Below are positions 7,357 through 55,208 of a stretch of 64,000 nt of DNA, one piece after another. The DNA lies in the NCBI RefSeq assembly GCF_037975245.1, contig NC_092576.1, positions 26,363,611-26,427,610 of the forward strand. Reading direction: 5' to 3'. The notes beneath the pieces were generated by a model. That model had not been told where the DNA came from. It made no database searches and saw nothing but the letters and a program-made list of their open reading frames with translations. The DNA comes from Apostichopus japonicus (lineage: Eukaryota; Echinodermata; Holothuroidea; Aspidochirotida; Stichopodidae). How positions within the stretch are numbered: position 1 is the stretch's first letter; every line of letters starts with the position of its first letter. Both the position numbers and the translations under genes were made by a program.

Positions 7357-7807
7357 TAACGCTGAGGAGATCGCTCTACGTATAGACTTTATCCTCAGAC
7401 ACAATGTTTTTGCGTTCATGGACAGATTATACATTCAGGCTAAGGGGACAAAAATGGCCCAGCGTATGCTAATCTATTTATGGCTGATTTTGAATCTACA
7501 TTTCTCGAAAGTTCTAATCTTCTACCATTTCTGTACTTACGTTACATTGACGATATCTTTGTTTTGTGGTCTCATGGGGAACAGTCTCTTGATGCGTTTG
7601 TAGATGCGCTCCACCCTTTCATTAAATTCACCATGGAGAAATCAAAATCTCATGTGGCCTTTACTGGACACTTTGGTCACTCTATCTAACGGTCGGATTA
7701 ACACGTCTTCATATTTTAAACACATTGACCGTCAGACATATCTACACTTTCATAGTTTTCACCCACTTCATATTAAAGAGTCAATTGTCTTTGGCCAAAT
7801 GCTTCGC
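7357..7807 (+). pseudogene. Penelope-like element reverse transcriptase, 5' part
   Basis: From 7357 one reads an RT segment ending FMDRLYIQAKGTKMA; a 1-nt shift near 7460 then gives AYANLFMADFE, LRYIDDIFVLWSHGEQ and HPFIKFTMEKS. The order (YxQxxGTxM, then YANLFM, then YIDDIF with the catalytic Asp pair, then the IKFT block) is that of Penelope-like RTs. The following block with HIDRQTYLHFHSFHP and IKESIVFGQMLR is the conserved connector after the RT core. Reading needs at least two frame changes, so it is a relic. It is broken at 7807 by an ORF1-only LINE and resumes at 9638. Confidence 0.75.
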
Positions 7808-7976
7808 GTTCAGTTCAGTTCTCGTGGAGTGCGGACGTGTTTTCGGCTGCTCTCCACCCTTCGTTGACCACACCTTTGTGTTTTTACGTTGGCCCTTCAT
7901 TAGTTTACAGTTGTTTTGGGTTTGTTTCGTTTTGGTTTGTGTATAGGTGCGTGGCTTTGCCACACCCCTAGCTGTC

Positions 7977-9269
7977 ATGGCGGCTCGCCGTGACAGCAAA
8001 ATCGTATTGCTGAGTTTTTCGGGGGAGGCTAAGGTCGTCCCCGTACAAGTTTTTTCAGTTTTGCGTTCTGTTGGTTTAAAGGTCCCTGGAGAGGTTGACG
8101 CGCTTCAGCGTAAATCTCTCCGGGGTATGAATTGTTTTGATGTACGGTTTACCTCGGAGGCTGCCCGCGTCCGAGGCGTCCATGTGTTGGAGGGAGTTGA
8201 GGGACTGAAGGTCACACCGTATGACAGTTCGGTGTGGGTGACAGTCCTCCACCTCCCTCTGGACATGTCTGAACAGGTTGTTGTGCGGACACTGGGGCGT
8301 TTTGGGAAAGTGACCGGCTACGAGGAGCCGGAATTCCTTGAATGTAAAGGTGTCAAGACCGGGACTAGACGAGTTAGAATCGAACTCAAGTCCGATATCC
8401 CCTCTACCTTGTGGGCTAATGGGCACAGGGCCCACATTGCATACCCGGGCCAGCCTCGCACTTGTTGGAGGTTTGGGCTGGAAGGGCATGAGGCCAGGTT
8501 GTGCCCGAACAAGCGGTGTAGCCGCTGTTTACAGGTTGGGCATACCCTGGCCGAGTGTAAAGGGGATATCGTTTGCAACTCGTGTGGGAAAACGGGCCAT
8601 CTCGCCCGTTTATGCCCAGACCGCTCATACGCCGCGAGAGTGGCTACGGGCGTGGTTGAAGCGGTCCCTGTCCCGGCCTCTGACACCGTACCATATGATG
8701 CTCCTGTCATCGCCCCAGTGTCCGACACTAGCGCCCCGATGGAGGCTTTGTTCCCCCTTTCGTGTCCGACCTCTCCCCTGATCGAACTTGCCGAGACTGC
8801 CAGCCTGCCCGCTGAGGCAGAGCAGGACAAAACGGCGGAGATGGTACTAGCGGAGTGGCACGCGGCGCAGGATGCCGCTTGTACTGGTTCACCGGTAGCT
8901 ACGCCCGCTATCGGTGATACTAGTCGGGCCCCGAGTCAACCGGCCCAAGAGACATTAAGTGGCCCAGATTCTGACTCGCCAATGGAGGACTGCACTACAG
9001 CCTTATTAGTTGTGGCTAAGGAGTCCTCCGATTGGTTTGATGAGACAAAACAGGCCACTGATCTCATTGACTCGAGTGGCCCTTCCACCCTACCCGCAGC
9101 CGCTTCCGCTATACCGGACACGATGGTCGCTAGTGGACCTCCTGTTCCCGACAGGGAGGTCCACTCGATCAAGGTTGACGAGGAGTTAAGAACTCTGCTC
9201 CCTCGTAAGAAAAGGGGGAATACTGTTAGGGGCTTGAAAAGACCCGTATTGGGAAAATTTCGCAGGTAA
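7977..9269 (+). CDS. LINE ORF1 protein with three CCHC zinc knuckles (430 aa)
   Basis: Nucleic-acid-binding ORF1 protein of a non-LTR retrotransposon, open from ATG 7977 to a TAA. The first 110 residues (LLSFSG..., CFDVRF, VTVLHLPL, LGRFGKVTGY) look like the RRM-like part of LINE ORF1 proteins. Three zinc knuckles follow at residues about 163-176, 181-194 and 200-213. In the first knuckle the second Cys is replaced: CWRFGLEGHEARLC, Phe166, where copy B has CWRCG. The C-terminal 200 residues are Pro/Ser/Thr/Ala-rich and acidic, ending in a basic tail (KKRGNTVRGLKRPVLGK). The frame also opens upstream at a GTG, but ATG at 7977 is the conserved start in the other copies. Confidence 0.8.
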   Translation: MAARRDSKIVLLSFSGEAKVVPVQVFSVLRSVGLKVPGEVDALQRKSLRGMNCFDVRFTSEAARVRGVHVLEGVEGLKVTPYDSSVWVTVLHLPLDMSEQVVVRTLGRFGKVTGYEEPEFLECKGVKTGTRRVRIELKSDIPSTLWANGHRAHIAYPGQPRTCWRFGLEGHEARLCPNKRCSRCLQVGHTLAECKGDIVCNSCGKTGHLARLCPDRSYAARVATGVVEAVPVPASDTVPYDAPVIAPVSDTSAPMEALFPLSCPTSPLIELAETASLPAEAEQDKTAEMVLAEWHAAQDAACTGSPVATPAIGDTSRAPSQPAQETLSGPDSDSPMEDCTTALLVVAKESSDWFDETKQATDLIDSSGPSTLPAAASAIPDTMVASGPPVPDREVHSIKVDEELRTLLPRKKRGNTVRGLKRPVLGKFRR

Positions 9270-9630
9270 TGCGCAAGCCTGTCGTCTGCTATCGGGACGG
9301 CGTACCCCGGATGAATTTTGGAGTTAGTTGTTATGTGTGGGGTGGGGGGTTTGTGTGGTCCTTACATAATATGGGTTGGGTGTTTTCTGTTTGTGGTTTG
9401 GTGTTGGCTTTTTGAGGCTGGTTTGTGGAGCTTTATTGTTTTGGTTCTCTTAGCCTTTGGGTCCGTGTCCTTTTCACGTCACGTTAAACGCTATATTTTA
9501 TACATTTGTGGATTAGTGAGAGATTTCTGTTTGTGGGTTTTCAGTTGGGTTTTGGTGGTTGTTAAACAGACTGTGATTGTTTTTGGTTTTGTTGACCTTT
9601 GGTCCGTGTCCGTTTCTTTGCACGTAAAAA
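9270..9630 (+). repeat. 3' region of ORF1-only LINE copy A
   Basis: A G/T-rich 3' region with two tail-like blocks: 'tttgggtccgtgtcc' followed by cacgtcacgttaaacgc near 9460-9491, and 'tttggtccgtgtccg' followed by CACGTAAAAAGC at 9599-9632. The second is the real terminus. Only the last dozen or so bases are shared with the ORF2-bearing copies at 33.2 and 60.0 kb. The short open frame across it (9318-9662) shows no protein motif. Confidence 0.6.
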
Positions 9631-9637
9631 GCTTCGC

Positions 9638-16310: not shown

Positions 16311-16920
16311 GAAAAAGGTAGGGGAGATTTCTTCGCCTGAATCTTCTCAAAAGAAAAGATATGACAGAGGCTTGATATGTCCAAGGCTCTGCTCGAAGCC
16401 CATGTATGCAACAATGGTAAGATTCTTAGGTTAGACCTGGGCCTAAATTTAGCCTATGCTATGTTAGGTCATAGTATTCTATGCTTAGTCTTCACTGTAT
16501 ATGAAATTTGGAAGGATATGAAGGTCTACGTTTTATTTGGACATGTTGTTATTTATCATAATTGCCTACAAGTAAAACAGGGCTATACTCCCCTTCCCCC
16601 AGGCCTATCAAATCAAATGCATGATTGTGGATTATGAGTACCGGTACTGTAAAACAAATTGTGGGGAAAAATATTCTGATGCAGTCCTGCTAGTAGTCAG
16701 TGTTCACCACTTCAAATGTACTTGCCAACTGCATGTACCACCCCCATAGAATTTCAGCAGGCTTAGGCCTATGCTAAACAATGACTTTTCTTTTACATTT
16801 TTTATAGGGTCCCTTCGAATAATGGCAGCAAAATTGACCTTGTCTGCTCCGAGGGCAAAACAGGGACACCCTTTCGGACTTCTTGCAAAAGCGCTTTTGA
16901 TAAATCGTTCGATATAAATC
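16311..16920. other. No gene seen
   Basis: Short open frames on both strands without motifs. The minus strand has an open run next to the LINE fragment (from 16920 downward), but it no longer matches ORF1 after EEPEFL. Confidence 0.5.
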
Positions 16921-17380
16921 AAGGAATTCCGGCTCCTCGTATCCGGTCACCTCCGGACCTTCATGGCGGGTCACGTAAAAAGCACTTCCGGACCTTCACT
17001 CCCTCAACTCCCTCCAACACATGGACGCCTCGGACGCGGACAGCCTCCGAGGTGAATCTTACATCAAAACAATTCATACCCCGGAGAGGTTTACGCTGGA
17101 GCGCGTCAACCTCTCCAGGGACCTTTAAACCAACAGAACGCAAAACTAAAAAACTTGTCCGGGGACGACCTTAACCTCGCCCGAAAAACTCAACAATACG
17201 ATTTTGCTGTCACGGCGAACTGCCATGACAGCTAGGGGTGTGGCAAGCCACGCACCTACCAAAGCCAAAACTACACTAAACAAACTACAAACTATTGAAA
17301 GGCCAACGTAAAAAACACAAAGTGTGTGGTGAACGAAAAGTGGAGAGCAGCCGAAAACACGTTCGCACTCCACGAAAACC
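16921..17380 (-). pseudogene. LINE ORF1 fragment, copy C
   Basis: On the minus strand, from about 17380, the leader and ORF1 start are seen (LATPLAVMAVRRDSKIVLL, then SVGLKVPGEVDALQRK, MNCFDVRFTSEAV, HVLEGVEGVKV). The frame then jumps to VTGYEEPEFL, so the region between residues about 78 and 112 of ORF1 has been deleted. Homology ends after that. A frameshift lies near 17145. The deletion joint holds a separate tiny insertion (16963-16986). No 3' end of this copy is present. Confidence 0.75.
16952..16997 (+). mobile_element. 24-bp LINE insertion consisting only of the 3' terminus
   Basis: Between two perfect 11-bp direct repeats TCCGGACCTTC (16952-16962 and 16987-16997) lies a 24-bp insert. 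It contains CGGGTCACGTAAAAAGCAC, exactly the last 19 bases of the ORF2-bearing copy ending at 33281. It sits in the opposite orientation to the ORF1 fragment around it. A direct repeat plus a 3'-end-only insert is what target-primed reverse transcription leaves when it stops almost at once. Confidence 0.75.
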
Positions 17381-32593: not shown

Positions 32594-33306
32594 ACATAAC
32601 GGACAATATAACACAATGCATGGAGAATTGCACACGGTGCCTTGGTGACCAATCTGAAAAGGTATCACTGGCGATTGGGCGATGGACTGTGCCCGAGGAC
32701 CGGCTGTGACAGCTTAGAGAGTACTGCCCATGTTTTTTGGCATTGCCCCTTTGTTTTGAACTTGTGGGAGTGGTTTCAGTCCTGGACCGACCGTTTAACG
32801 GGAGACCGTTCCTGGTCGGTAGGACAGGGTTTTGTTTTATATGGATTAGATCCTCCAGTTTGTTCCGTTGCTGTGTCGCAGCGTATTATTTATGTTTCTT
32901 CTGTTGTAAAAAAACTTATTTGGAGGAATAGATGTGATGTTGTTTTTAGGGGGAAATTTGCCAGTTGGCAGGCAGTCCTGGAGGCGGTGAAGTCTGACAT
33001 TCGCCTTCAGGTCGAAGGCGATTTTCGCCGTTTATCTAGGGCTGCCTTTTTTGGACGGTGGTGTGCTGGGGAAGGGTGTTTTGTTTCGCTGCGTGCTGGT
33101 CGTCCTTTTGTAGTTTTTAAATATTTCAGTGGGGGGTTAGGCGTTTTGTCTCTGCAGGTCGGTGAGCATATGTACTTTTTTGGCTCGCTTGACCTGAGGT
33201 TCGTTTGTAAGCATGGGATGGTTTGGTAGTGCCGTTTGGCCGTGACGTTTTGTATCCCGTATGACGGGTCACGTAAAAAGCACATAACGGACAATATAAC
33301 ACAATG
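32594..33306 (+). mobile_element. 5'-truncated LINE insertion (ORF2 C-terminus and 3' end) with 25-bp target duplication
   Basis: A perfect 25-bp direct repeat (32594-32618 and 33282-33306, starting ACATAACGGACAATATAACA) brackets 663 bp of LINE. The insert holds the end of ORF2, a short 3' region and the terminus CACGTAAAAAGCAC. There is no poly-A tail. The long perfect duplication shows a 5'-truncated target-primed insertion that is fairly young. Confidence 0.85.
32642..33229 (+). pseudogene. LINE ORF2 C-terminal fragment
   Basis: 195 open codons ending at the true stop. The start resembles the zinc-ligand region after the RT of non-LTR elements: LKRYHWRLGDGLCPRTGC, ESTAHVFWHCPFVLNLWEWF (C..C...E...H.FW.C....LW). 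The remainder (VKKLIWRNRCDVVFRGKFAS, VLEAVKSDIRLQVEGDF) is the usual basic tail in Tx1/L1-like ORF2 proteins. A second copy at 60.0-60.6 kb (minus) has the same sequence with a frameshift. RT and endonuclease are absent here through 5' truncation. Confidence 0.75.
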
Positions 33307-33572: not shown

Positions 33573-34076
33573 GAATAAGGGCCTGAAAAGAGCCGTATTG
33601 GGAAAACATCGCAGGTTATGACACCAGACACCTTATCCCTCGTCACCCTTAATGTGAATGGGATGAGGGGTACCCCAAAAAGGCGACGGATTTTACAGTT
33701 CTGCAAGTTGCTCCAAGTGGATGTGGTCCTTTTGCAAGAGACCCACATATCTTGTGAGAGTAATGTTCATCTTTGGTCCTTGGAGTGGGGGAGGAGGCCT
33801 TTATGCCTCCTTTTTGGATCAGGGGCATCTTGCGGGACTGTAATTTTGGTGTCCCCAAAACTGTGTCATTGTGTGGCAAATGTGGAGAAAGACCATGAAG
33901 GTCGGGTGGTGTGCATACACTTAAGGCTCACGCGGGGTGAGTTGGTGGTTTGCAATGTGTATGCCCCCAACCGGCCAGCATGTAGGAAAAATTTCTTCAC
34001 GGTGTTGCCATCCTTAGTAGCGGGTAAGGCAAATTGTATCCTTGTATTGGTGACGACCCACCGACCTATTTTGTAA
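33573..34076 (+). pseudogene. LINE ORF1/ORF2 junction with APE-type endonuclease N-terminus
   Basis: The first 45 bases match the end of ORF1 (GLKRAVLGKHRRL then TGA). ORF2 begins at ATG 33618, overlapping the ORF1 stop as ATGA. ORF2 reads TLSLVTLNVNGMRGTPKRR, VDVVLLQETHISCES, GTVILVSPK and VVCNVYAPNRP. LNVNGMR, LLQETH and NVYAPN are the first motifs of the apurinic-type endonuclease of non-LTR elements, with the catalytic Glu in QETH. The GDFN motif and everything after it are missing; homology stops near 34060. This is the only place in the window that shows the junction of the full-length parent LINE. Confidence 0.75.
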
Positions 34077-38340: not shown

Positions 38341-39335
38341 CATGAAACAAAATGCCGAGAAAAACAGCAGAAGGGACAAAGTCTTTGGTTTGAAGAGGAA
38401 GAAAGGACCAATGAGTGGAAGAAGTGAGTATGATATTTCAAATTTTGATGTCAATTAGCCTGATAAAAAAATTGGGCCCAAATAACAGGCAGCCTATGAC
38501 AGGCAGGCGAGGCTTTACTGTGGGCTAATCCTCGTGTATTAGTACAGCACTAGCCAGGTAATAACGACAGATGATATAGTAGTACTGCTCTGGGGAAGGT
38601 AATGGGATTTGCTAGGGGCCCACGTCATCGACATACCTGTGTGTTAGGAAGGAAAGGGGTCCGATGTTTCTATCAGTATTATTTTAGAGCTCTAGAAATG
38701 TATTAGAATCAGTGCCCGGAAGTATTATTAATACAGTACACGTCGTGCATTGTTACATGCATATCTCTCTACTGCCGGTCACCAATTCTGATTTAGTACC
38801 CAAACAATGTAAGATAGGCATGAACATTTCAGAACCCCCCCCCCCCAAACACACCATACATACACACCAACCCTCAGTACAACTGCAAAGTCCCGAAAAG
38901 CTTCCCACTGTGGACCTTGCGACGTAGTTGTAGTTTTTGTAATATTTTGAAATATTTTAATATTTCTTTCTAATTTTCAGGAAACTCAACAGTTCCTAAT
39001 CAAGCTGCAACTAGTGAGCCATGCCGTGCCCAGGCAGATCCGATACCCACAACAACATTCGAAAGGAAAAGGGACAGCTTTGCAGCTCAAACCCCAATAT
39101 TGAATGACTCAAACCAGTACCTCTTTTTCCATAAGTCAGCAATAGACAAAGTGAAATTCTGTTCTTGTTCTGCATGTCATTCAAGATGACATTAGTTGGT
39201 ATACGGTTCCACACAAGCAGTTGGTATGAGAAAATTTGCTGATTCTAATCTGCGTATGGTCACGGCTATGCGCAATATAGGTCGAGGACATGCTGGTGTC
39301 CAGGAGTTTTGTACATATTTGATGTATGAGGTATC
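38341..39335 (+). pseudogene. Mutator-like transposase gene, 5' exons
   Basis: Exon 1 starts at MPRKTAEGTK (ATG 38351) and, one frame over, KRKKGPMSGR, with a donor near 38421. Exon 2 (acceptor 'aattttcag' before 38981) reads GNSTVPNQAATSEP, then, after stops, ADSNLRMVTAMRNIGRGHAG and VQEFCTYLMYEV. The MPRKT start and the R.V.AMR.IGRGHAG..FC..M block are typical of the multicopy Mutator-like transposase-domain proteins of marine invertebrates. At 39336 the reading is broken by LINE copy B and resumes at 41162. Frameshifts inside both exons make it non-functional. Confidence 0.65.
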
Positions 39336-41174
39336 GTGCTTTTTACGTGCAGAGAAACGGACACGGACCAAAGGTCAACAAAAGCAATCCCAGTCTGTTT
39401 AAGAACCACCAAAAACCCAACTGACAACCCACAAACAGAAATCTCTCACTAACCCACAAATGTATAAAATATAGCGTTTAACGTGACGTGAAAAGGACAC
39501 GGACCCAAAGGCTAACAGAACCAAAACAATAAAGCTCCACAAAAAGCCAACACCAAACCACAAACAGTAAACCCCCAACCCATATTATGTAACGACCACA
39601 CAAACCCCCCACCCCACACATGACAACTCACTAACTCCAAAATTCATCCAGGGTACGCCGCCCCGATAGCAGACGACAGGCTTGCGCAATTTTCCCAAAT
39701 TTTCCCAAATTTCTGCGAAATTTTCCCAATACGGGTCTTTTCAAGCCCCTAACAGTATTCCCCCTTTTCTTACGAGGGAGCAGAGTTCTTAACTCCTCGT
39801 CAACCTTGATCGAGTGGACCTCCCTGTCAGGAACAGGAGGTCCACTAGCGACCATCGTGTCCGGTATGGTGGAAGGGCCACTCGATTCAATGAGATCAGT
39901 GGCCTGTTTCGTCTCATCAAACCAATCGGAGGACTCCATAGCCACAACTTATAAGGCTGTAAGTGCAGTCCTCCATTGGCGAGTCAGAATCTGGGCCACT
40001 TAATGTCTCTTGGGCCGGTTGACTCGGGGCCCGACTAGTATCACCGATAGCGGGCGTAGCTACCGGTGAACCAGTACAAGCGGCATCCTGCGCCGCGTGC
40101 CACTCCGCTAGTACCATCTCCGCCGTTTTGTCCTTCTCTGCCTCAGTAGGCAGGCTGGCAGTCTCGGCAAGTTCGATCAGGGGAGAGGTCGGACACGAAA
40201 GGGGGAACAAAGCCTCCATCGGGGCGCTAGTGTCGGACACTGGGGCGATGACAGGAGCATCATGTGGTACGGTGTCAGAGGCCGGGACAGGGACCGCTTC
40301 AACCACGCCCGTAGCCACTCTCGCGCAGTATGAGCGGTCTGGGCATAAACGGGCGAGATGGCCAGTTTTCCCACACGAGTTGCAAACGATATCCCCTTTA
40401 CACTCGGACAGGGTATGCCCAACCTGTAAACAGCGGCTACACCGCTTGTTCGGGCACAACCTGGCCTCATGCCCTTCCAGCCCACACCTCCAACAAGTGT
40501 GAGGCTGGCCCGGGTATGCAATGTGGGCCCTGTGCCCATTAGCCCACAAGGTAGAGGGGATATCGGACTTGAGTTCGATTTTAACTCGTCTAGTCCCGGT
40601 CTTGACACCTTTACATTCAAGGAATTCCGGCTCGTAGCCGGTCACTTTCCCAAAACGCCCCAGTGTCCGCACAACAACCTGTTCAGACATGTTCAGAGGG
40701 AGATGGAGGACTGTCACCCACACCGAACTGTCATACGGTGTGACCTTCAGTCCCTCAACTCCCTCCAACACATGGACGCCTCGGACGCGGGCAGCCTCCG
40801 AGGTAAACCGTACATCAAAACAATTCATACCCCGGAGAGGTTTACGCTGAAGCGCGTCAACCTCTCCAGGGACCTTTAAACCAACAGAACGCAAAACTGA
40901 AAAAAACCGGGGACGACCTTAGCCTCCCCCGAAAAACTCAACAATACGATTTTGCTGTCACGGCGAGACGCCATGACAGCTAGGGGTGTGGCAAAGCCAA
41001 GCACCTATACAGAAACCAAAACGAAACAAACCCAAAACACACAAACTACACTAAAACAAACTGTAAACTAATGAAGGGCCAACGTAAAAACACAATAAAG
41101 GTGTGGTCAACAAAAGGTGGAGAGCAGCCGAAAACACGTCCGCACTCCACGAGAACTGAACTGTATCAGGTATC
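39323..41174 (-). mobile_element. ORF1-only LINE derivative, copy B, inserted in the Mutator-like gene
   Basis: The insert is 39336-41161 on the minus strand: 5' start GTTCAGTTCTCGTGG, ORF1, 3' region and terminus CACGTAAAAAGCAC. The flanks TGTATGAGGTATC (39323-39335) and TGTATCAGGTATC (41162-41174) match at 12 of 13 positions and form the target duplication. Its layout is the same as copy A at 7.8-9.6 kb, including the same ORF1-to-3'-region joint with no ORF2. Total length is also nearly equal (about 1826 and 1823 bp). Confidence 0.85.
39631..40975 (-). pseudogene. LINE ORF1, copy B, two frameshifts
   Basis: Same protein as copy A. The start codon region (about 40973) is out of frame with the body because of a short deletion near 40912. 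The body (40894-39917) carries all three knuckles intact: CWRCGLEGHEARLC, CSRCLQVGHTLSEC, CNSCGKTGHLARLC. Another shift near 39945 separates the C-terminal part (ESSDWFDETKQATDL to RGLKRPVLGKFRR). That part then reads through into NLGKFGKIAQACRLLSGRR owing to a duplicated 'aattttcccaaatttt' stretch at the end. Confidence 0.8.
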
Positions 41175-51612: not shown

Positions 51613-52069
51613 AAAGAGAGAACGGGAGAGGGAAATGTCACCAAATGCATTAGCAATTGTAGATAGATCACCCCATAAGCTTGTAACACCTGTGAGAACT
51701 GGCAAAATTACTAGGCGTACTAATGAAATCCAAGACGAATTTTTACCATTTGTCTCTGATGGTTTTGTATCTCTTAACGAGGATCTCCCGCCAGTGAAAA
51801 TTAGGGTATTACGGGACACGGGTGCTGATCAATCTCTGCTATTGGAAGGCATATTGCCACTGTCTGAACAAACATCAGCTGGCGGAGATGTATTGCTTCA
51901 GGGGGTGGGGTGTATTTCTATTCCTGTGCCAGTTCATAACATCCATCTTCAATCAAACATTGTATCGGGTATGGTTATGGTGGGTGTTAGACCATATCTT
52001 CCTGCAAAAAGGGTGCAGTTTCTCTTAGGCAATGATTTGGCAGGTGGCAGTCAATCCAATTGTCACTGA
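51485..52069 (+). pseudogene. Protease region of pol
   Basis: Frame overlapping the gag end by 128 bases. After a basic NCFKLARKRERERE stretch it reads PPVKIRVLRDTGADQSLLLE, with the DTGA active site of retropepsins, and VQFLLGNDLAGG, the typical LLGxDLAGG end. It then hits a stop at 52069, while the integrase frame (52032 onward) picks up with NPIVTDKPSTC. The change near 52045 looks like a small deletion in this copy rather than a programmed shift, because the LAGG motif is directly followed by the break. Aspartic protease that would process Gag and Pol. Confidence 0.75.
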
Positions 52070-54641
52070 CAAGCCGAGCACTTGTGATAACACAGAGCAG
52101 TTACAGAAAGAAATTCCTAATCTCTTCCCTGCATGTGCTGTGACTCGCGCTATGTCTAAAAAACTTCAAGAAGTTTCAAATTCGGATCATTCTTCCTTTT
52201 CAAACGAGACTAACTCCAAACATAGGGAGTCTCCTAAGAAATGTCCTCCAAAAGAGGCTTTCCATAATTCCCAAGCGGAATTTAATTTGGCTGATACCTT
52301 TTTGGGTCGCCTTTATAATGATCCCGACCCTCCTTTGGGTCCCCTAAGTTCGTTACCAAACGGTGTGAACCCAGAACAGTCAAACTCTGTTCCTTTTGAG
52401 GTGTTCTCTTCTGATTCCCTGTCAAGAGAACAACTCCTGTTAGAGCAGGAAAAAGATCCTGAACTAACCTTGCTGTGCGACAAGGCAATCACCGAGGACG
52501 AAGCAGAAAACGTCCCGGTTTGTTTTTACCTTAAAAAGGGTATATTAATGAGAAAGTGGAGACCACCAGATGTATCCGCATTTGATGAGTGGCGAGTTTA
52601 TCACCAAGTGGTCGTTCCTAAAGTCTATAGGTCTGATGTATTAAGTTTGGCACATGAGACGCCTTTTTCTGGTCATCTTGGCGTTAACAAAACATACCAT
52701 CGTATTTTTAATCACTTCTTTTGGCCAAATCTTAAGAAAGATGTTTCTTATTTCTGTAGAACATGTCATACATGTCAACTAGTGGGTAAACCGAATCAAA
52801 CAATCCCACCAGCACCACTTAAACCAATTCCCGCTTTTGAAGAGCCTTTTAGTAGAGTGATCATAGATTGCGTCGGTCCTCTACCGAAAACTAAATCTGG
52901 TAACCAGTATATGCTTACTATAATGTGCGCATCGACAAGGTTCCCCGAAGCTATTCCTGTTAGGGATATTAAGGCTAAGACCGTGTGTAAGGTTTTGATT
53001 AAATTCTTTACTTTGGTTGGTTTACCAAAGTCTGTTCAATCCGATCAGGGTTCAAATTTTATGTCAAGAGTTTTCCAACAAGCTATGTATCAGTTGAATA
53101 TTAGACAAGTTACATCTAGCGCTTATCATCCACAAAGCCAAGGTGCGTTGGAAAGATTCCACCAAACATTGAAGAGTATGATTAGGACATATTGTTTTGA
53201 AAATGTAAAAGATTGGGATGAAGGTGTTCATTTCTTAATGTTTGCTGCCCGAGAGTCAATTCAAGAGTCATTAGGGTTTAGCCCGTTCGAGCTTGTGTTT
53301 GGTCACAGAGTTCGTGGTCCACTAAAAATGTTGAAAGAAAAGTGGATGTGCGAGACAGAAGACCTGAATATTCTTGATTATGTCTGTAAGTTCAAGTACA
53401 GACTTCACAGAGCATGTGAGATTGCCAGAGAAAACCTAAAGAGTGCTCAAAATAGCATGAAACTTAGATATGACAAACGTGCGGTAGATAGATCATTTTC
53501 ACCTGGAAACAAGGTATTAGTGTTTTTGCCAGTTCCTAATTCACCATTGCATGCTCGATATTTTGGCCCTTATGTTATTCACAAAAAAGTGAGTGACACT
53601 GATTACATTGTTTTGACTCCGGACAGACGTAAATCCAAGAGATTGTGTCATATTAACATGCTTAAGAAATATTACGAGAGAAACTCTAAGGATAATAGTT
53701 TCAAGATTACGTCATCAATTGTTACTTCTGAAGTAGATTGTGAAGATGAGGTCGAAGGTCAAAATGTTCCAGAAATGTGTATTAAATTGCAAAATTCTGA
53801 TGTAATGTCAAACCTTGATAAGAAGTTATGCCATTTGTCAACTGCTCAAAGTGAGCAAATCGGTTCATTGTTGCGAGATTTTTCACATCTATTTTCAGAC
53901 AGTCCGACCAGGACTAATCTAGTGTATCACGATGTTGATGTGGGTGATTCGAAGTCAATTAAGCAACACCCATATAGAATGAATCCTGTAAAATCTAAGC
54001 ATCTGCGTGATGAAATTCAGTATATGTTGAAACATGATATTATTGAACCTAGCGACAGTGAGTGGTCTTCTCCATGTATTTTGGTTCCCAAACCAGACGG
54101 AAGTTTTAGATTTTGTACCGATTATCGGAAAGTAAACACCGTTACACGGACCGATTCATACCCCATCCCTAGAGTGGATGATTGTATTGATAGAATTGGT
54201 AATGCAAGGTTCGTAACGAAGTTTGACTTGCTAAAAGGGTACTGGGAAATACCACTCACTGATCGAGCTAAGAGAGTGTCGGCATTCGTTACACCCGATG
54301 GGTTATTTCAATATAAAGTAATGCCGTTCGGAATGAAGAACGCTCCAGCGACATTCCAACGTTTGTTAAACAATATAACTGCCAGTTTAGAAAATTGTGA
54401 AGTTTATATTGATGACATTATTGTGTATAGCAACTCGTGGTATGAGCATGTAACTCGTATTAGATCACTTTTTGAGAAGTTAACTGAGGCAAATCTTACT
54501 GTAAATCTTGTCAAAAGTGAGATTGCACATGCAAATGTTATTTTTCTAGGTCACGTGGTTGGTCAAGGCGAGGTAACACCCGTCAAGGCCAAGGTTGAGG
54601 CTATTGACAAATATCCAGTCCCAGCTACGAGAAAGCAATGA
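52032..54641 (+). CDS. Integrase and reverse transcriptase (pol, 869 codons)
   Basis: Residues about 200-250 have the HHCC zinc finger (LAHETPFSGHLGVNKTYHR, then FCRTCHTC). Residues 275-380 hold the integrase core with D279 (VIIDCVGPL), D338 (SDQGSNF) and E374 (GALERFHQTL). A GPF/Y-type module follows (FGPYVIHKKV, 511-520). Only then comes the RT: WSSPCILVPKPDGSFRFCTD, FDLLKGYWEIPL (D732), MPFGMKNAPATFQ and VYIDDIIVYS (D794, D795). Integrase before RT is the reverse of ordinary Gypsy order. The frame ends in TGA (54639-54641) just before RFLGMAGYYRRFC, clearly a nonsense mutation in a continuous protein. Confidence 0.9.
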   Translation: MIWQVAVNPIVTDKPSTCDNTEQLQKEIPNLFPACAVTRAMSKKLQEVSNSDHSSFSNETNSKHRESPKKCPPKEAFHNSQAEFNLADTFLGRLYNDPDPPLGPLSSLPNGVNPEQSNSVPFEVFSSDSLSREQLLLEQEKDPELTLLCDKAITEDEAENVPVCFYLKKGILMRKWRPPDVSAFDEWRVYHQVVVPKVYRSDVLSLAHETPFSGHLGVNKTYHRIFNHFFWPNLKKDVSYFCRTCHTCQLVGKPNQTIPPAPLKPIPAFEEPFSRVIIDCVGPLPKTKSGNQYMLTIMCASTRFPEAIPVRDIKAKTVCKVLIKFFTLVGLPKSVQSDQGSNFMSRVFQQAMYQLNIRQVTSSAYHPQSQGALERFHQTLKSMIRTYCFENVKDWDEGVHFLMFAARESIQESLGFSPFELVFGHRVRGPLKMLKEKWMCETEDLNILDYVCKFKYRLHRACEIARENLKSAQNSMKLRYDKRAVDRSFSPGNKVLVFLPVPNSPLHARYFGPYVIHKKVSDTDYIVLTPDRRKSKRLCHINMLKKYYERNSKDNSFKITSSIVTSEVDCEDEVEGQNVPEMCIKLQNSDVMSNLDKKLCHLSTAQSEQIGSLLRDFSHLFSDSPTRTNLVYHDVDVGDSKSIKQHPYRMNPVKSKHLRDEIQYMLKHDIIEPSDSEWSSPCILVPKPDGSFRFCTDYRKVNTVTRTDSYPIPRVDDCIDRIGNARFVTKFDLLKGYWEIPLTDRAKRVSAFVTPDGLFQYKVMPFGMKNAPATFQRLLNNITASLENCEVYIDDIIVYSNSWYEHVTRIRSLFEKLTEANLTVNLVKSEIAHANVIFLGHVVGQGEVTPVKAKVEAIDKYPVPATRKQ

Positions 54642-55208
54642 ATGCGATTTTTAGGTATGGCTGGGTACTATAGGAGATTTTGTCGGAATTTTTCCGATGT
54701 TGCTGCTCCGCTCACGAATTTATTGAGTAAGAGCACAATGTTTGTTTGGACAGAGAGTTGTCAAAATGCTTTTGATAAAATCAAGGCAATCTTAATGAGT
54801 TCCCCTGTTTTAAGAGCTCCAAATTTTTCTAAGCAGTTTACGTTAGCAACAGACGCAAGTGATTTTGGTGTAGGCGCTGTTCTCTTACAAGTCGATGATC
54901 ACGGTGTCGATCACCCAGTGTGTTATTTTTCTAAAAAGTTCAATTCACATCAAAAGAATTATTCCACCATTGAGAAGGAAACGTTATCTTTGTTGTTAGG
55001 ACTTCAACATTTTGATGTTTACTTAGGCACTACTTCATTTCCAATTATCGTGCTAACCGATCATAATCCTTTAACGTTTTTGCAAAAGATGAGAAACAAG
55101 AATCAAAGATTGATTCGATGGAGCTTATTTTTGCAACAGTATAATTTATGTATTAAGCACATTAAAGGAAAAGAAAATGTCATTCCAGATGTATTGTCAA
55201 GAGCATAA
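54642..55208 (+). pseudogene. RT thumb end and RNase H of pol
   Basis: Same frame as the upstream pol, after its single TGA. MRFLGMAGYYRRFCRNFSDV is the RT tail. RNase H follows with TDASDFGVGAVLLQ (first Asp), STIEKETLSLLLGLQHF (Glu), LTDHNPLTFL (Asp) and IPDVLSRA at the end. All catalytic residues are present. No integrase follows, in keeping with its upstream position. Translation would need stop read-through or reversion. Confidence 0.85.

Follow-up and report, generated by a model that had tools for sequence, protein, structure and literature searches.

A LINE derivative with ORF1 only that has propagated in the genome of the holothurian Apostichopus japonicus, probably with a borrowed reverse transcriptase

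The genome of Apostichopus japonicus contains a family of LINE derivatives that have retained ORF1, have lost ORF2 and have multiplied in this reduced form. We consider, with a probability of roughly three in four, that they represent a half-LINE lineage that would supply its own ORF1p and use an ORF2p in trans. The best reading is that this half-LINE works like the mammalian HAL1 and the HeT-A of flies, being neither of them by descent. What is new here is the purifying selection on ORF1 along the internal branches of the ORF1-only tree. The analysis followed up a sequence-only reading of a stretch of 64,000 nucleotides (the window), in which two such copies, A and B, had been described. The existence of the ORF1-only derivative is real, and the earlier observation as a whole was partly confirmed.

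Copy A (7805-9632, plus strand) is a full-length member of the young wave of the family, as judged from its sequence and the genome-wide comparison, and copy B (39338-41163, minus strand) aligns with it end to end over ~1.83 kb in a pairwise alignment. The two copies have, as originally described, the same build and nearly equal length: a leader, ORF1 and a ~360-nt 3' region ending in CACGTAAAAAGC, with no ORF2. On the plus strand of copy A, the 5' leader (7820-7976), assigned by diagnostic-site comparison to the parent-like side of the mosaic described below, is followed by an open ORF1 of 430 aa (7977-9269). At the deletion joint (9269-9274) the ATG of the parental ORF2 (9269-9271) is fused directly to the ORF2 tail (from 9272), and the 3' region (9272-9632) consists of an out-of-frame leftover of the last ORF2 codons plus the parental 3' UTR. 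The three zinc knuckles attributed to ORF1 are all present in copy B, where ORF1 is interrupted; in copy A the first has lost one Cys (to Phe) and CCHC knuckles 2 and 3 are intact. With the Pfam CCHC model the ORF1 of copy A fell slightly under the cut-off and that of the parent was over it, and the predicted structure of ORF1 (four input sequences) had a mean pLDDT of 32 and was set aside. At base level the joints of A and B differ, the right side being the same and the left side of B carrying a local duplication of ~20 nt. The target duplications ascribed to the two copies (GCTTCGC at 7801-7807 and 9631-9637, plus strand, the right one overlapping the terminal GC of A; GATACCT at 41168-41174 on the 5' side and 39329-39335 on the 3' side of B, minus strand) have 7 nt each, weak by themselves and near chance, and the claim stands for the family (see below) rather than for A or B singly. 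A further member of this LINE/half-LINE group in the window is a degraded 5' fragment (16919-17379, minus strand), 90% identical to bases 14-409 of copy A. At 9440-9632 the terminal motif (GGTCCGTGTCC...CACGT...) appears in two imperfect copies, one internal and one terminal.

The 28-mer at the joint of copy A was found at 169 places in the 671.6-Mb genome at up to three mismatches, the reversed 28-mer giving none in the whole genome. Seventy-nine of the places are exact, and the joint of A is thus that of the family. The parental ORF1-ORF2 joint pattern appeared at 41 places genome-wide (control 0), four of which adjoin copies of a second ORF1-only form (see below), leaving 37. Most joints therefore do not continue into ORF2 (169 ORF1-only versus 37 ORF1-ORF2 places, a rough ratio, since the two patterns may catch unequal shares of their families), and this, together with flank sharing well above chance, sustains the proposal that the ORF1-only form itself was copied in the manner of HAL1. 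A genome search with copy A produced 614 candidates. The best 40 were scored (39 fetched, with A as the fortieth), a sample hence biased toward full-length and intact copies, and 35 of the 40 extend at least from base 8 to base 1828 (of 1,828). Other copies were chosen by their joint, all from the first 100 listed of the 169 places: one part comprised 16 listed copies of the C variant and two without mismatch (L066, grouped with the older wave, and L067, grouped with the young wave), and the other 40 of the 41 remaining listed copies without mismatch. The numbers of 5' ends (189 places) and 3' ends (193 places) had been read as little truncation, a reading that we dropped: the 5' pattern also fits parents sharing that leader, the 3' pattern differs from the end of the parent by a single mismatch, and the ORF1 start is kept in 34 of the 58 joint-sampled copies.

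The exact ORF1-only joints are clustered, 75 of the 79 being located in two blocks (C17:15.4-25.7 Mb and C16:26-31 Mb) that make up ~2% of the genome and may be pericentromeric or poorly recombining. A sister LINE family, whose 3' end is found in the window at 32641-33284 (plus strand), has 84 of its first 100 listed places (of 494, in contig order) in the same blocks, the remainder falling in small blocks on C11, C12 and C7. At 52032-55208 the window contains an LTR-type element with integrase domains (residues 195-546) ahead of the reverse transcriptase (685-842) and RNase H in the following frame. Gypsy elements usually have the opposite order, integrase before reverse transcriptase being that of the Gmr1-like ones. 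One 36-mer from the reverse transcriptase of this element has nine genomic places, three of them in the C17/C16 blocks, including the window's own.

The fragment at 33578-34044 (plus strand), with the end of ORF1, the ORF2 ATG and the start of the endonuclease domain, had been taken to reveal an ORF2-bearing parent, and it is indeed 90-98% identical to 39 other scored genomic places. Five ORF2-bearing parent loci were fetched. The parent L022 has an ORF1 of 426 aa and an ORF2 of 1,144 aa that overlap by 4 nt, and the ORF2 frame is open across 1,153-1,158 codons in four of the five copies. The endonuclease and reverse transcriptase of the parental ORF2 were over the Pfam cut-offs and zf-RVT was under it (E ~4e-5), so that the parent has the domains that define the L1/Tx1 group (APE-type endonuclease, reverse transcriptase and C-terminal zinc motif) with the last of them sub-threshold. 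The best solved-structure matches of the parental ORF2 are L1 ORF2p, to which it is related as judged by best solved match and not by a tree. Among solved structures the parental ORF1, which has CCHC knuckles, gave no L1 ORF1 match. In a comparison of the 5' ends of L022, L023, L108 and L109, copies of the parent show two unlike leader types, one of them resembling the leader of the sister LINE, and the proteins of parent and sister are only ~45-56% identical despite the like leaders; leaders seem to have been swapped between LINE families.

Comparison with the five parents locates the deletion precisely. The joint of the derivative reads ...CGCAGGTAATG/CGCAAGCC... (the slash marks the breakpoint), and the parent reads ...CGCAGGTTATG/ACACC... 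at the left breakpoint and ...GACGCTGG/CGCAAGCC... at the right one. The segment removed starts just past the ATG of ORF2 and reaches into its last codons, which amounts to 3,371 nt for L022. At the joint there may be microhomology of one base, and there is no GT-AG. ORF1 stops, in the 24 copies scored as intact, at a TAA overlapping the former ORF2 ATG. Three copies (L045-L047, with a GTAATG joint) were considered as a closer parent, a role that we rejected on recognizing them as a second ORF1-only form, in which the first ~60 nt of ORF2 are kept and are followed by the 3' region. The right end of this second joint, found at six genomic places with an exact two-anchor pattern, lies within ~5 nt of that of the first. 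The two deletions are apparently independent, because copies with the first joint keep joint-adjacent parental bases that those with the second lack.

A way to recognize how the copies were inserted is to compare the sequences on both sides of them. Among 59 copies examined, 41 had both ends, and in 24 of these the flanks share at least 9 nt (up to 24 nt), compared with 6 of 1,640 mismatched flank pairs, whose median shared stretch is 5 nt. The flanks of the remaining 17 share nothing clearly over chance. Flanking sequence differs from copy to copy, and the ORF1-only copies sit with their target duplications at chromosome-interior positions. Copies end in GTAAAAAGC, mostly followed by AC(A) and then the flank, and no poly(A) tail was present in those whose 3' ends were inspected. 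These marks indicate that the family is copied by retrotransposition. The 5' ends of four young copies (L009, L010, L014 and L021) carry variable runs of TTCAG repeats, which perhaps reflect slippage or template jumping as cDNA synthesis ends.

The 3' region of the derivative (~360 nt) is homologous to that of the parent over its whole length. Its identity, with gaps counted, is 74-77% to five recent parents and 83% to the older parent L048, and between majority sequences, over aligned bases, 88% and 92%; the last ~45 nt of derivative and parent 3' ends are nearly identical. The sequence-only reading had held that only the last dozen or so bases are shared with ORF2-bearing copies, and this is true only of the sister LINE, the 3' region of which (32641-33284) is unlike that of copy A apart from CACGTAAAAAGC. 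The suggestion that this short match reveals how the partner's reverse transcriptase recognizes the derivative consequently lacks support in the form in which it was put, since what parent and derivative have in common is the entire region. The sister LINE is a different family. The C-terminus of its ORF2 in the window is 41% identical to that of the parent, and in the longer copy L109 the identity to the parental ORF2 is 54% (residues 1-915) and 46% (residues 959-1125) and that to the parental ORF1 56% (residues 1-225). When four 3' ends and one internal repeat were folded, small hairpins resulted that did not surpass those of shuffled sequences (z -0.18 to -0.67).

Copies with the first joint belong to more than one wave. 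The older wave, sampled through the C variant (16 copies), has longest matches to A that are ~82-93% identical. Identity to the majority of their own group is ~98-99.6% in the sampled parents and in the sampled young wave (a sample biased toward good copies) and 95-97% in the older wave, which indicates that the sampled parent and young-wave copies are of similar young age. The young wave has a mosaic structure, in which the 5' end resembles that of the parent. Over the first ~350 nt, 13 diagnostic sites agree with the parent and 5 with the older wave; beyond that point the numbers are 2 and 59, respectively (Fisher p=3e-9, with a boundary picked after inspection of the data); in copy A the switch is located near 8150. 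Acquisition of the parental 5' end by template switch or recombination would fit this pattern, a replacement in the older wave instead being a possible alternative.

In order to assess whether ORF1 has been maintained, we have used a FastTree phylogeny of 86 sequences with at least 800 nt of ORF1 in one match, 79 of them ORF1-only; 12 of the 40 joint-sampled copies without mismatch, 8 of 17 of the older wave, two of the three second-joint copies and one of the two old parents were left out. Rooted on the parents, the 79 ORF1-only sequences form one group. Parsimony counts on its internal branches gave 102 nonsynonymous and 94 synonymous changes, a dN/dS of 0.46 (p=7e-8), compared with 0.84 on the terminal branches (Fisher p=8e-5 for the difference), and two wrong-frame controls gave 1.10 and 1.96 on the internal branches. 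The internal value was 0.50 without CpG sites, 0.47 on branches with support of at least 0.7, 0.54 with both filters, and 0.53 once changes toward alleles that parents or outgroups carry were removed; by region, it was 0.35 for codons 61-230 and 0.60 for codons 231-430. A first count within the family had given 13 nonsynonymous and 13 synonymous shared variants, and dN/dS between the majority sequences of the groups is not significantly below 1. Stops on terminal branches (24 versus 23 expected) fit neutral decay after insertion. An ORF1 of at least 420 aa ending at the normal stop was found in 26 of the 99 copies examined, namely 24 of the 41 best-scoring ones (A and B included) and 2 of 40 and 0 of 18 in the joint-chosen samples. 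ORF1 is thus under purifying selection during propagation, significantly so only in this tree-based parsimony test, which is not a codon model.

Taken together, the data point to the following sequence of events. An internal deletion of ~3.4 kb took out ORF2 from behind its start codon up to its last codons and spared the leader of the parent, ORF1 in functional form (with three CCHC knuckles) and a complete 3' region. The RNA of the derivative is probably bound and packaged by its own ORF1p, which would act in cis, and the parental ORF2p probably accepts its 3' module, which has the conserved ~45-nt terminal block ending in CACGTAAAAAGC. This ORF2p would nick the target and make the DNA copy by target-primed reverse transcription; the resulting insertions have target duplications and lack a poly(A) tail. 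Since ORF2 is missing in the derivative and open in the parent, we infer mobilisation in trans by the reverse transcriptase and endonuclease of a full-length LINE, and this ORF2-bearing parent is the most likely donor. The sister LINE is a live rival for that role owing to its 494 3' ends, compared with 41 places for the joint pattern of the parent, and to its identical terminus; it also occupies the same chromosome blocks (among its first 100 listed places), and the common terminal dozen bases might suffice for recognition. We regard it as a rather unlikely main donor, given that the derivative retains the entire 3' region of the direct parent, with ~45 nt of near-identical end, that the mosaic represents an exchange with the direct parent's own 5' end and that the 3' region of the sister is otherwise unalike.

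The remaining explanations concern the role of ORF1 and the origin of the copies. The derivative could be a passive parasite, its RNA being mobilised wholly in trans by parental ORF1p and ORF2p as in a SINE and its ORF1 being open only through recency. SINEs have no protein-coding capacity, while here ORF1 is open in a quarter of the examined copies; nevertheless, the other 73 of the 99 lack an intact ORF1, many insertions are young and the majority-level dN/dS is not significant, all of which would suit a passenger. The difference between internal and terminal branches and the absence of a nonsynonymous deficit in the wrong-frame controls speak against it, selection on ORF1 arguing against a passenger that is purely passive in the manner of a SINE, and make this explanation unlikely. 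The single precise joint directly past the ORF2 ATG might suggest a retrotransposed spliced transcript. Deletions of the SpIRE type are bounded by splice sites with the GT-AG consensus, and the segment removed here is ACACC...CTGG (or shifted by one base); the second joint is likewise not GT-AG, and a splicing origin was rejected as most improbable. The concentration of the copies in two chromosome blocks could, in turn, be produced by segmental or tandem duplication of DNA instead of retrotransposition. The distinct flanks among copies, with copy-specific shared stretches of 9 to 24 nt in 24 of the 41, leave this origin hardly any credibility, and it was also rejected.

The most familiar half-LINEs are those of mammalian L1. 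In mammals, HAL1 forms emerged on more than one occasion, and the recurrence that we describe is therefore not new in kind; the primary paper on HAL1 is reportedly that of Bao and Jurka in 2010. HAL1 is described as a LINE derivative with ORF1 only and target duplications, which needs the reverse transcriptase and endonuclease of a full-length LINE, carries a poly(A) tail and has nearly 2,100 human copies (PMC5322556). As far as that description goes, the half-LINE found here resembles it in the retained ORF1, the deleted ORF2 and the target duplications, and differs in having no poly(A) tail. Its parent is also a different LINE, with a CCHC ORF1, and not a mammalian L1, and a mosaic leader and selection on internal branches are shown for it. 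HeT-A of Drosophila is presented as a Gag-only non-LTR element that must take its reverse transcriptase from others, is added to chromosome ends in head-to-tail arrays, never in the interior, and exists beside a rarer two-protein relative, TAHRE (PMC5537684). The likeness to that account lies in an element with gag/ORF1 only and a close relative bearing the reverse transcriptase, and the difference in copies that are chromosome-interior, with target duplications, instead of terminal arrays. Other cases appear more remote. The EKA genes of powdery mildew, whose homologues number more than 1,350 and go back to a portion of a LINE ORF1, are reported as truncated LINE copies co-opted as effectors, and share with our family the derivation from a LINE ORF1 (PMC4641428). 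The SpIREs of human L1 are described as internally deleted copies, likewise inserted by retrotransposition, that result from splicing within the 5' UTR or between 5' UTR and ORF1 and are generally dead ends (PMC5860796), unlike the half-LINE, with a joint that is not GT-AG and a form that propagated. In Hebe of bdelloid rotifers, LINE copies are described as internally deleted at microhomologies, with inactivating deletions (PMC2861651), whereas here a single joint is common to 169 places. Among the titles and abstract openings of the matches listed, which covered few subscription papers, there was no half-LINE of a CCHC-type LINE, weak evidence for novelty.

More tentatively, and with the odds rather against it, the family could be a hyperparasite that outnumbers its host LINE by means of a short RNA with a cis-acting ORF1p; the two deletions, ~5 nt apart, would then bound a minimal 3' module of ~360 nt for the partner's reverse transcriptase, and template switching to the parental 5' end would renew the promoter. 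The half-LINE lineage itself is a recurrent one in a LINE with a CCHC-type ORF1, in which selection on the retained ORF1 has been measured directly. It is an argument that ORF1p is able to work on the RNA encoding it with a borrowed reverse transcriptase, separating the cis-preference of the two LINE proteins, and the two natural deletions with a near-equal right edge, together with the conserved terminal block, provide a concrete candidate for the minimal substrate of a tail-less LINE reverse transcriptase.
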